Part shown: piece after piece, positions 53,821-56,925 of the stretch
How the letters are laid out: every line of letters starts with the position of its first letter
Position numbering within the stretch: the first letter of the stretch is position 1
Assembly (NCBI RefSeq): GCF_000513295.1
Contig: NC_023065.1
Coordinates: forward strand, 930,001-994,000
Length of the DNA: 64,000 nucleotides
Source: Magnetospirillum gryphiswaldense MSR-1 v2
Lineage (GTDB): Bacteria > Pseudomonadota > Alphaproteobacteria > Rhodospirillales > Magnetospirillaceae
Direction of reading: 5' to 3'
Made by a program: the position numbers and the translations under genes
Notes under the pieces: model-generated
Databases searched by the model: none
What the model was told of the DNA's origin: nothing
Seen by the model: the letters and a program-made list of their open reading frames with translations, nothing else

Positions 53821-53897
53821 CCGGTCGCCTGAACGGATCATTTCAAGGGGCGACCGGTATGACTGATTAAACCGGTTCAATCACAAGGTTGACCGGT
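53821..53897. promoter_or_regulatory. CCGGT-repeat region upstream of the MFS gene
   Basis: A 9-bp inverted repeat (CCGGTCGCC at 53821-53829 and GGCGACCGG at 53849-53857) is followed by further ACCGGT copies at 53871-53876 and 53892-53897; the copy at 53870-53877 is the palindrome AACCGGTT. This spacing of about two helical turns looks like an operator array for a transcription factor controlling the MFS gene. No clear -35/-10 pair was found. Confidence 0.5.
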
Positions 53898-53924
53898 CGT
53901 GACCAAGCGGCCAAGGTCGGGGTT

Positions 53925-55163
53925 ATGAATAGTGTAACGCCTTCCGCCACCACCTTGGCCCTGCGGGTCTTGCTGCCGTTTGCCGGCGGCTATTTCCTGT
54001 CCTATCTGTACCGCACCGTCAACGCCGTGCTGGCCCCCCATATCGCTGCCGACATCATGCTTGATGCCGGTGCCTTGGGCCTGATGACCGGCATGTATCT
54101 GCTGGCCTTCGGCTCGGTGCAATTGCCCTTGGGCATTCTGCTCGACCGTTACGGCCCGCGCCGGGTGGAAGCGGCGCTTCTGCTGTTTGCCGCCGCTGGC
54201 TCCGCCTTGTTCGCCATCGCCGAACAACCGTCGGCGCTGATCATGGGCCGTGCCCTGGTCGGCCTGGGGGTATCGGCCTGTCTGATGGCCGCCATCAAGG
54301 CCAACGTGCAATTCTATCCGCCGCAAAAGCTGGCCTTGGTCAACGGTATCATCCTGTTCGCCGGCGGCTTGGGCGCGGTGGCGGCGACCCAGCCGGTACA
54401 GGCGGCGCTGGCCTTGACCGACTGGCGCGGCATCTTTTGGATTTTGGCCGGACTCAGTCTGGCCATGGCGGTCATTTTGTTCGTCACCGTGCCCGACAAG
54501 GGCAGCGGGGCAGGGGGCGGCAGCCTGCTGGCGCAGATGGGCGATGTTGCCGCCATTCTCCGCAACCCAGATTTCCTGCGGGTGATGCCGGTCACCGCCA
54601 TCGCCTTGGGCTCATTCATGGCCATCCAGGGGTTATGGGCCGGGCCGTGGCTGCGCGACGTCGCCGGCCTGGACAGCAACGCCGTCGCTCAATCGCTGCT
54701 GGCCATGGCTGCCGGCATGGCCGCCGGCTATCTGGCCTGGGGCGCGGTCAGCGATTTTCTCGGTCGCCGTGGCATCCATATCCTGGTGGTCGCCGCCTTC
54801 GGCATGGTCTGGTACGGGCTGTCCATGACGGCCATGGCCCTGGGCTGGGGCGGCGCGCCGGTGTTTCTGTCCGCCAATTTCGGTTTTGCCGGGGCGTCGG
54901 TGTCCTTGTGCTATGTGGTGGTGGCGCAACTGGTGCCGTCCACCATGTCGGGACGGGCGACCACCACCTTGAACCTGATCATCTTCGCCGTCGCCTTCGC
55001 CGTGCAATGGGGCTTGGGCGCTATCATCAATCTGTGGCCCAAGATCGATGGCGGCTGGCCGCCCTTGGCCCATCAGGTGGCGCTCTGGGTGCCGGTGGTC
55101 CTGACCGTGGCCGCCATGATGTGGTTGGCCCCCCTGGTGGTGCGATCCTGGCGCAACAGGTAG
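53925..55163 (+). CDS. major facilitator superfamily transporter
   Basis: A 412-residue protein with about 12 hydrophobic helices and the MFS cytosolic loop motif between helices 2 and 3 in LPLGILLDRYGPRRVEAALL, repeated less perfectly as WGAVSDFLGRRGIHIL between helices 8 and 9. The FLSYLYRTVNAVLAPHIAAD opening resembles nitrate/oxalate- and phthalate-type antiporters in general, but the substrate is not recognisable. The ATG at 53925 follows an AAGGTCGGGG purine-rich region; a longer in-frame start at 53889 lies inside the repeat region. Confidence 0.85.
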   Translation: MNSVTPSATTLALRVLLPFAGGYFLSYLYRTVNAVLAPHIAADIMLDAGALGLMTGMYLLAFGSVQLPLGILLDRYGPRRVEAALLLFAAAGSALFAIAEQPSALIMGRALVGLGVSACLMAAIKANVQFYPPQKLALVNGIILFAGGLGAVAATQPVQAALALTDWRGIFWILAGLSLAMAVILFVTVPDKGSGAGGGSLLAQMGDVAAILRNPDFLRVMPVTAIALGSFMAIQGLWAGPWLRDVAGLDSNAVAQSLLAMAAGMAAGYLAWGAVSDFLGRRGIHILVVAAFGMVWYGLSMTAMALGWGGAPVFLSANFGFAGASVSLCYVVVAQLVPSTMSGRATTTLNLIIFAVAFAVQWGLGAIINLWPKIDGGWPPLAHQVALWVPVVLTVAAMMWLAPLVVRSWRNR

Positions 55164-55211
55164 GCGGCTTGCCTGCCCGGCAGGGCAGTGGTTTGAATTA
55201 GAGTGATGTCA

Positions 55212-55217
55212 TATAAT
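55212..55217 (+). promoter_or_regulatory. perfect TATAAT -10 box before the candidate RNA
   Basis: TATAAT matches the consensus at all six positions. The start site expected about seven bases downstream (55224-55225) falls at the first base of the long stem described next. No good -35 box is present at 16-18 bases, so an activator or an alternative promoter type would be needed. Confidence 0.5.
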
Positions 55218-55224
55218 GGGCGCC

Positions 55225-55292
55225 GCGAAAAGCCTTGCGGGACCGCCCCGTCCCACATCCAGGCGTTGCCCGCGCCATGCAAGGCTTTTCGC
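55225..55292 (+). ncRNA. candidate structured small RNA (three-way junction)
   Basis: Arms GCGAAAAGCCTTGC (55225-55238) and GCAAGGCTTTTCGC (55279-55292) pair perfectly over 14 bp and enclose 40 bases that fold into two further hairpins, GGGAC/GTCCC (55239-55254) and GGCG/CGCC (55262-55276). Together they make a closed three-way junction. A CCTG/CAGG stem with TTTTCCCTT behind it (55298-55320) could end the transcript. No coding potential is evident. I do not recognise it as a known riboswitch, 6S or SRP RNA; a palindromic repeat element is an alternative. Confidence 0.45.
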
Positions 55293-55428
55293 CCCTTGCC
55301 TGCCCGTACAGGTGTCAATTTTCCCTTAACGTCAGCATGAACCTTTGTTGACGCGAGAAGCTGTCACTTTTCCCCACCGCCCATTGCCGCTACAAATGAG
55401 CCGTTGCAGCCAATGATGGTGACGGAAA

Positions 55429-55629
55429 ATGCTTCATCACGGCAGGAATAGCTGCTTTAACGCGCTTATGGGTGTGGGTGGCGCTGTGGCCGAACGGGAT
55501 TCCCTGGCCATGCGCCGGGTGATCGACGATGTCCTGGCCTGTGACAAGCTGGTCCGGTGCAGTGATCGGCTGGAATGTACTTGGCTGGCCTCGCAGATGG
55601 CCGATTCCATGCGTAATCGTCAGGGCTGA
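55429..55629 (+). CDS. small cysteine-containing protein of unknown function
   Basis: Encodes 66 residues (MLHHGRNSCFNALMGVGG onward) with four cysteines, no signal peptide and no family I recognise. A GACGGAAA sequence directly precedes the ATG. Its last ten bases overlap the 3' end of the hemerythrin gene on the other strand. It may be a real small gene or an open frame by chance; composition resembles that of neighbouring genes, which mildly favours coding. Confidence 0.4.
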   Translation: MLHHGRNSCFNALMGVGGAVAERDSLAMRRVIDDVLACDKLVRCSDRLECTWLASQMADSMRNRQG

Positions 55630-56027
55630 GCGGTAAACAGGCTTTTGTACTTCATGTCCTCGACCAGGATGTGGTCCATCAGCCAGGTCTTCAGGAACTT
55701 AGCCATGTCCTCGGTCAGGGCATCGGGCTTGTTGCCGGCCAGATGACGGGCGCGGAACGCCATGACCATTTCGCGCAAGCGCTCATGCTGGGCGTGGTGA
55801 GCCGCCAGATCGGCGTAATCGCGGGCGGCCAGTTTGCTTTCCTCGCGGTTGAAGTGACCGTCGGTGTAGTCCAGCAACTCATCGAACAACTGATCCAGTT
55901 CGACCTTGGACGGATCGATCTGCCAGGAATCATAGATACGGTTGAGGATTTCGATCAGCCGGCGATGATCGGCATCCAAGGCGGTGGTTCCGACGCTGAA
56001 CGACTTGTCCCACTGAATAAAGGCCAT
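55620..56027 (-). CDS. bacteriohemerythrin
   Basis: A 135-residue O2-binding di-iron four-helix protein. All seven expected metal ligands are visible: His21, His58, Glu62 (HFNREE), His77, His81 (HHAQH), His119 and Asp124 (DHILVED). Single-domain hemerythrins of this length store or deliver O2, or sense it, in micro-aerobic and magnetotactic bacteria. It has no fused signalling domain. A terminator was not evident; its upstream region (56028-56141) contains no gene. Confidence 0.93.
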   Translation of the reverse strand: MAFIQWDKSFSVGTTALDADHRRLIEILNRIYDSWQIDPSKVELDQLFDELLDYTDGHFNREESKLAARDYADLAAHHAQHERLREMVMAFRARHLAGNKPDALTEDMAKFLKTWLMDHILVEDMKYKSLFTAQP

Positions 56028-56141
56028 GACGGGGCGACACTTTCAAATTGGGCTAACCTGTGCCTACCGAAATAGCCAATTCGCTTCGCTACTGCAATGT
56101 CGCCCGGCGACATCGAGGGATGCGCCGGGGGCATGACTGAT

Positions 56142-56426
56142 TTACGTGCGGTCGTTTTGTTCCCGCAGAAGGCGCAGCAATGGGTTGGCCTCGGCCAATT
56201 GGCGCCAGGGCGCGGTCCAGGCTTCCATGGCTTGGCCCCACAGCGCCATGGGGGCGAACAGCGGCGACATCTGCCCCAGGCCGCCGATCAGCGGCAGGGC
56301 CGATTGAAAATCGGGGGTGGCGCGCAGATTGATGGTCATGATCTCGGCGCCGCCATCGGGGTCGCTATGATGGCGGATCTCCACACTCATGTTGGGCAAG
56401 GTGCCGGTGATGGTGGTTTCGTCCAT
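56142..56426 (-). CDS. small protein of unknown function
   Basis: Encodes 94 residues starting MDETTITGTLPNMSVEIRH, then ITINLRATPDFQ-like strand (MTINLRATPDFQ) and a Trp/Pro-rich end (WGQAMEAWTAPWRQLAEANPLLRLL). No membrane segment. GAGG five bases before ATG 56426 supports the start over an upstream Met. Family not recognised. It lies 99 bases downstream of the Cys-rich copper-binding gene, separated by that gene's terminator. Confidence 0.6.
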   Translation of the reverse strand: MDETTITGTLPNMSVEIRHHSDPDGGAEIMTINLRATPDFQSALPLIGGLGQMSPLFAPMALWGQAMEAWTAPWRQLAEANPLLRLLREQNDRT

Positions 56427-56525: not shown

Positions 56526-56852
56526 TTACAGCACCTTGCGGCACTGGGTTGCCGCCCGTCGACAGGATTCGGCACATTCCTTCATGCGCAGATCGATCGG
56601 GGCCAGCTTTTCGCAGGCATCGGCGCATTTGTCGGCGATTTCCGCCGTCACCCGCAGCACCGAAGTATATTGGCGCGACGAGCGCAACAGGAAGTCGGCG
56701 GCGGTTTCGGTGATGTCGGCGGTATCCAGCAGCAATTGCACCAATTCCCAATTGGCCAGATCGCCGCCTTGCTGCATGCCGTGGATGGCCGCCTCGGTGG
56801 CGGTACGGTGCGCAAGGTCGCAGGCGTTGATGCAATCTTTCATCATCGGCAT
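56526..56852 (-). CDS. four-helix bundle copper-binding protein (DUF326/ferredoxin-like Cys-rich)
   Basis: A 108-residue helical protein with cysteines at 7, 11, 76, 80, 93, 97 and 104 in CxxxC spacing (DCINAC, KCADAC, ECAESC), the layout of the DUF326 and Csp-like copper-storage bundles. Seven cysteines are fewer than the 13-18 of Csp1/Csp3. GGGAGGG eight bases before ATG 56852 fixes the start; two later Met codons are close by. No signal peptide, so cytosolic. Copper binding is inferred from family. Confidence 0.8.
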   Translation of the reverse strand: MPMMKDCINACDLAHRTATEAAIHGMQQGGDLANWELVQLLLDTADITETAADFLLRSSRQYTSVLRVTAEIADKCADACEKLAPIDLRMKECAESCRRAATQCRKVL

Positions 56853-56925
56853 CGGTTCAACCCTCCCTGTGGTGTCTCCTCTGGGTTGAAAGCCTGATCC
56901 CAAACCACGGTACCGTCAATGCGAA

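Follow-up and report, generated by a model that had tools for sequence, protein, structure and literature searches.

Does the long palindrome behind an MFS transporter gene in Magnetospirillum gryphiswaldense MSR-1 mark a structured RNA and, if so, what would such an RNA do? The palindrome is located in the window, a 64-kb stretch of DNA that was analyzed as a whole and that corresponds to positions 930001-994000 of the MSR-1 genome (4,365,796 bases in a single contig). The MFS gene (53889-55163; Pfam MFS_1) lies upstream on the plus strand, and a hemerythrin gene (55620-56027; Pfam Hemerythrin) lies downstream on the minus strand. An earlier, sequence-only reading had proposed a candidate structured RNA in this interval, to which no ORF was assigned, between the MFS gene and the hemerythrin region. 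The element itself is indeed intergenic, but the interval also contains a conserved small ORF (55429-55629, plus strand), the predicted product of which is a cysteine-rich protein of 66 amino acids.

Predicted fold of the element

The predicted RNA element spans 55225..55292 on the plus strand, a delimitation based on the fold, covariation, conservation and distribution among genomes. Its closing stem is formed by two arms, GCGAAAAGCCTTGC (55225-55238) and GCAAGGCTTTTCGC (55279-55292), which are exact reverse complements of each other, as expected of the 14-bp perfect inverted repeat originally described, and which enclose exactly 40 bases, also as described. In the minimum-energy fold of 55225-55292, the enclosed bases form two hairpins, such that the element adopts the three-way junction that had been proposed for it, with a closing stem of 14 bp. 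The energy of this fold is -39.0 kcal/mol (z -5.9), and none of 200 shuffled sequences folded as low. Hairpin 1 (55239-55254, plus strand) comprises 5 bp, in which GGGAC and GUCCC flank the loop CGCCCC, and hairpin 2 (GGCGUUGCCCGCGCC; 55262-55276, plus strand) comprises 5 bp closed by the loop UGCCC. The two arms of the closing stem were assigned from the fold together with pair changes among seven homologous sequences, hairpin 1 from the fold and pair changes on both sides, and hairpin 2, the most constant part of the element, from the fold and its near-identity across the homologues.

In the 64-kb window, no perfect inverted repeat other than the closing stem combines arms of 13 bp or more with a loop of 3-100 bases. 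Under the same criteria, 100 shuffled windows contained a mean of 0.32 such repeats, or 0.06 when arms of at least 14 bp were considered. The repeat by itself is hence just moderately unusual, and the case for the element rests on conservation and covariation.

Homologues, copy number and distribution

A DNA search of 61 genomes, including that of MSR-1, yielded matches at E <= 1e-9 in five other genomes, all of the same genus, together with many weaker matches that resemble chance. Searching at the protein level with the product of the MFS gene led to the same five loci (L031-L035), which belong to a MAG labelled Stygiobacter sp., M. sulfuroxidans J10, two Magnetospirillum MAGs and a Rhodospirillaceae MAG. 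In these loci and in the window, i.e., in six of the seven carriers, the element is located directly behind the MFS gene. A covariance model built from these six sequences (R1) detected the seventh homologue, that of genome G007, at 38.6 bits, before this sequence had entered any model; a further model (R2) was built from all seven.

R1 was run over the 13 genus genomes and over 248 genomes of the order, and R2 over 40 relatives, 385 genomes of the class and 317 of the order. Over the 317 genomes of the order, R2 gave exactly seven loci (E <= 0.01), which were distributed among 7 of the 13 genomes of the genus and none of the 304 outside it. The scores of the carriers are high by construction, since their own sequences built the models, and the information in these searches lies in the absence of the element elsewhere; searches of more than 40 genomes employed stricter filters, which lose weak matches and could miss a remote relative. 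Beyond the seven loci, R1 and R2 gave weak matches only, over genus, order and class. Two of these, in G022 (26.5 bits) and G616 (31.5 bits), were rejected: they lie within stop-free stretches of 1878 and 1968 nt, respectively, and in neither case is the fold this junction. Seven R1 places at 20.5-23.7 bits and one in G050 at 23.1 bits were treated as noise, the weak R1 places because none of them recurred with R2 at E <= 0.1 over the 40 relatives. Among the genomes searched, the element is restricted to one genus.

Within the MSR-1 genome, one match was found in 4,365,796 bases (E <= 0.001), and each of the two covariance models likewise gave one place. The sequence-only reading had named many genomic copies as the mark of a mere palindromic repeat; with its single copy the element is not a repeat element, and a palindromic (REP-like) origin was rejected. 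The remark that no known RNA family came to mind also proved correct, in that none of the 4227 models of Rfam release 15 matched anywhere in the window at its curated gathering score. Three sub-threshold matches were located in 55100-55450, all of them to microRNA hairpin models (20.1, 16.6 and 14.7 bits, versus gathering scores of 80, 70 and 114, respectively), and we take them as the chance product that any long hairpin would give.

Covariation and sequence conservation

All seven homologues adopt the same three-way junction in their minimum-energy folds. In the alignment of the seven sequences, 96.9% of the 161 cells pair, and 9 of the 23 pairs (14 cells) are changed on both sides, including 7 of the 13 modelled pairs of the closing stem and 2 of the 5 pairs of hairpin 1. 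None of 500 column shuffles matched the observed pairing or the observed changes on both sides. The covariation value was 0.325, versus 0.166 in the shuffles and at most 0.168 when the partners were slid, in which case 33-54% of the cells were paired. Simulations on the MFS tree, 500 in each of four settings, likewise never attained any of the three compared values. These simulations were based on the unrooted tree, with scales of 0.7 and 1.0 and two root sequences, and the mean divergence that they reached was not printed; an earlier trial had used the tree rooted on G007, with 30 simulations per setting. The number of further pair types in the seven sequences was not exceptional (224 of 500 shuffles reached it), and for the six-sequence alignment alone, 69 of 500 shuffles contained at least as many pairs with changes on both sides as were observed. 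Compensatory changes in related genomes, proposed in the sequence-only reading as a check, are present in the seven sequences beyond both shuffles and tree simulations.

Between the MSR-1 group (G000, G005 and G006) and the group of G008, G011 and G012, one A-U pair of the closing stem is replaced by G-C, one G-C pair is replaced by A-U in two of the latter three, and U-A takes the place of C-G as the last pair of hairpin 1. The most distant homologue is that of G007. Relative to MSR-1, six of its 11 closing-stem pairs are altered, five of them on both sides, and the fold is kept, with hairpin 1 now drawn as 7 bp around a loop of 3 nt.

Across six genomes, the element is 80% identical, as against 67% for the third codon positions of the MFS gene. 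Hairpin 2 reaches 89% and the element's own linker 47%, and the corresponding values for the flanks are 54% (upstream), 46% (-10 region) and 52% (tail). With its compensatory changes, its single copy and no match in Rfam, the candidate of the sequence-only reading is almost certainly a genuine structured RNA.

The type of conservation differs among the parts of the element, in that the letters of the closing stem vary freely with pairing kept, whereas those of hairpin 2 are fixed. Six of the seven homologues, that of G007 included, share all 15 letters of hairpin 2; in G006 the loop is one base shorter and one stem letter is changed. The 15-base string was detected at 19 places in 55 genomes of the family, 6 of which are the element (that of G006, with its shorter loop, is not one of these places). 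The other 13 places were rejected, since they showed no junction on folding; they lie in stop-free stretches of at least 783 nt, but stop-free length alone is no discriminator in this GC-rich DNA, where such stretches extend over 180 to 1554 nt around six of the elements. In the seven predicted folds, C accounts for 85 of the 147 unpaired bases and G for 10; the C-run in the loop of hairpin 1 is missing in G007.

Strand, candidate promoter and 3' end

G-U pairs occur in each of the seven folds (one or two in each, 12 in all), and they count in favor of the plus strand, since they would be A-C on the other strand. The model scores of the six training loci, which are partly high by construction, were 86-99.5 bits on the plus strand and at most 27 bits on the minus strand. 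Fold energies alone do not decide the strand, being lower for the minus strand in two of the seven homologues (G008 and G007).

The TATAAT box to which the sequence-only reading had drawn attention is present at 55212..55217 on the plus strand, and the promoter claimed for it finds support only in part. A TAnnnT motif stands 6-7 nt before the stem in six of the seven loci (TATACT, TATGAT, TAAGAT, TAGAGT and TAAAAT in the five relatives), but a -35 box is lacking: a consensus scan of 54500-56200 detected no sigma-70-type promoter and no recognizable -35 box accompanying TATAAT. Taken as a whole, the -10 region shows poor conservation (46%). In G007, no TAnnnT motif is located 6-7 nt before the stem, and TATAAG is found 10 nt upstream instead. 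In the passages considered of a published MSR-1 transcriptome, the -10 motif is given as TATaaT, with starts 6-9 bp downstream (PMC9549626), a spacing at which the start would fall on the first bases of the closing stem. The same passages describe transcription starts that are mostly A (PMC9549626), unlike the predicted start positions at the element, which are C or G. The one sRNA that they name via Rfam, BjrC80, is encoded at another place, and they name nothing at the place of the element (PMC9549626).

At the other end, a run of T directly behind the stem is absent from all seven loci, so that the element lacks the pattern of an intrinsic terminator, i.e., a GC-rich hairpin followed directly by a U run. 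The first run of at least four T residues lies 21-47 nt past the stem in six loci, and there is none within 60 nt in G007. A terminator-like site is found at 55297-55314 in the window and is not conserved in the alignment.

Neighboring genes

In one carrier, G007, the element is independent of the MFS gene. The MFS gene of this genome (C80:1477-2673) is separated by 1.8 kb from the element match (C80:4434-4521), and the element is preceded by a gene for a family-2 glycosyltransferase, which runs on the opposite strand. The glycosyltransferase frame has a stop at L117:1483, ahead of the element at L117:1511-1580. With a divergent upstream gene that closes before the element, a nearby upstream start would be the simplest source of a plus-strand transcript.

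On the downstream side, a homologue of the small cysteine-rich ORF follows the element on the same strand in all seven carriers, at a distance of 101-143 nt (starts chosen by alignment), which in G007 amounts to 101 nt. The small ORF may or may not be a member of one unit with the element. Its homologues were detected in 10 of the 13 genomes of the genus, and four cysteines (C9, C38, C44 and C50) are invariant among ten aligned sequences, which derive from nine genomes, with that of G002 left out. Searches of Pfam, NCBIfam and solved structures gave nothing of note for the protein.

Three genomes (G002, G004 and G010) contain small-ORF homologues and give no match to the element. In G002 (L148) the MFS gene and the small ORF stand side by side with the element absent, a natural comparison for gain or loss, and from this gene order it follows that the small ORF does not need the element everywhere. 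Upstream of the homologues in the three genomes, no such junction was apparent by eye when the three best 80-nt windows of each were folded (40 shuffles per window), and R2 found nothing in 12 loci.

In six minimum-energy folds that extend from the element to the small ORF, the element folds alone and does not pair with the start region of the ORF. Pairing of the element with the start regions of its two neighbor genes likewise showed no consistent gain over shuffles in the 10 of 12 regions covered: the small ORF of L031 was ~2 sd better than shuffles, one region was worse and the rest were within ~1 sd. The two regions left out, those of the L031 hemerythrin gene and the L033 small ORF, were not located by pattern.

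Between the element and the small ORF is an imperfect inverted repeat, TTGACGCGAGAAGCTGTCAC (TGAC-N10-GTCA; 55348-55367), within a block (55346-55370) with 76% identity across six orthologous loci. Within the window, this pattern is matched exactly once. The repeat may resemble redox sites of the RegA/PrrA type, and it is a possible activator site for the small ORF. Judged by eye, the repeat and an ACAAT-like box in the same interval look like a promoter belonging to the small ORF itself.

A further cysteine-rich ORF, of 125 amino acids, is located upstream of the hemerythrin gene (56526-56903, minus strand). A putative identity as a copper-binding (DUF326) protein was rejected, as Pfam does not support it and gave no match above the cut-off.

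Possible modes of action

The computed properties of the element, namely its fold, the compensatory conservation of that fold, its single copy and its linkage to the small ORF, can be read in several ways. Our preferred reading, to which as a whole we would give even chances, is a genus-restricted, trans-acting small RNA with a promoter of its own and C-rich loops that pair with mRNAs. Transcription would begin at the closing stem or no more than a few bases away, driven by a promoter whose -10 box is the TATAAT at 55212-55217. The long closing stem would hold the junction together and shield the ends of the RNA, and the junction would keep the C-rich positions exposed. We infer a trans-acting regulatory small RNA, in which the C-rich unpaired positions, chiefly the hairpin 2 loop UGCCC, may pair with G-rich stretches, e.g., ribosome-binding sites.

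One observation that counts against action in trans is the constant downstream neighbor, which is the pattern expected of a cis element. The element could accordingly be a cis-acting leader, i.e., the 5' part of the mRNA of the small cysteine-rich ORF, which it would control, e.g., upon binding of a metabolite, metal or protein. It precedes the ORF on the same strand in every carrier, even away from the MFS gene, the intervening distance is 101-143 nt, and, according to the transcriptome passages, leaders in MSR-1 commonly measure 150-300 nt (PMC9549626). The element resembles riboswitch-like leaders as a compact junction at that distance before a conserved gene on the same strand, and departs from them in that neither an expression platform nor a conserved terminator was seen: the six folds showed no pairing with the start region, and no terminator stands behind the element. 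Moreover, small-ORF homologues occur without the element in G002, G004 and G010, and the repeat at 55348-55367 with its ACAAT-like box resembles, by eye, a separate promoter for the ORF. A leader is possible on this evidence, if on the doubtful side. In hairpin 2 the letters of both stem and loop are kept, whereas the closing stem keeps its pairing only, and this would suit an RNA that serves a protein, with hairpin 2 as the recognition site of a regulatory protein that is titrated or scaffolded and with no mRNA pairing involved. The element is, however, a single copy with a single such site, and the C-rich loops would suit pairing equally well, so that we consider protein binding unlikely.

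A role at the level of DNA, whereby the palindrome ends MFS transcription or represents a DNA repeat of a structural or mobile kind, would be in keeping with the long perfect stem and with the position directly behind the MFS gene in six of the seven carriers. In G007, however, neither the MFS gene nor another same-strand gene directly precedes the element, which is far from the MFS gene and still upstream of the small ORF, a situation that speaks against a terminator of the MFS gene. In none of the seven loci is the stem directly followed by a run of T, the element is single-copy and the conserved letters of hairpin 2 would be needless for a terminator. A terminator of the MFS gene was therefore disfavored, and a DNA-level role of any of these kinds is scarcely credible.

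The trans-acting small RNA could also be elaborated into a scheme in which the junction RNA and the four-cysteine small protein constitute one unit, the protein, or the metal or redox state that it senses, binding the nearly invariant hairpin 2 and thereby freeing or hiding the C-rich positions. Such an arrangement is very unlikely, but if true it would represent a metal- or redox-responsive riboregulator, composed of an RNA and a small protein, in a model magnetic bacterium.

Relation to known RNAs

Two alphaproteobacterial RNAs invite comparison, each as described in the passages considered. GsrN of Caulobacter has a C-rich loop, its most conserved part, that base-pairs with a G-tract in the leader of katG, and the RNA is confined by BLASTn to the Caulobacteraceae (PMC5869019). 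PmaR of Agrobacterium tumefaciens combines a long stem with a C-rich loop region and is confined by sequence to Agrobacterium and a close relative (PMC6234868). The element, as predicted, is similarly a short alphaproteobacterial RNA with exposed C-rich loops and a narrow sequence distribution, a likeness by description only. Transcription and targets have been shown for GsrN and PmaR, whereas the element is known from sequence alone; the predicted three-way junction is a feature of the element, and none is described for GsrN or PmaR in those passages.

The -35 motif of sigma-EcfG promoters is GGAAC. No GGAAC was found within 80 nt upstream of any of the seven elements; a sigma-EcfG promoter was thus rejected, and the element lacks this mark of the GsrN family, as GsrN-like RNAs were sought via the sigma-EcfG site in the passages considered (PMC5869019).

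No report of the element was found in the open-licence literature searched, and no small RNA terms were found in the passages considered of two further papers (PMC7676999, PMC12774639). The MSR-1 genome paper gives a count of 11 misc_RNAs but no list of them (PMC3953193), so that an annotation of the element may already exist. The element is very probably a genus-restricted structured RNA without an Rfam family, and its general kind is already known. Many lineage-restricted small RNAs occur in bacteria, and the element is otherwise an ordinary kind of discovery. Since the transcriptome passages name one sRNA in MSR-1, via Rfam (PMC9549626), RNAs at the genus level may be largely unmapped. MSR-1, a genetically tractable magnetic bacterium, gains an RNA that is supported by covariation, with exact coordinates and a hairpin 2 that can be mutated.
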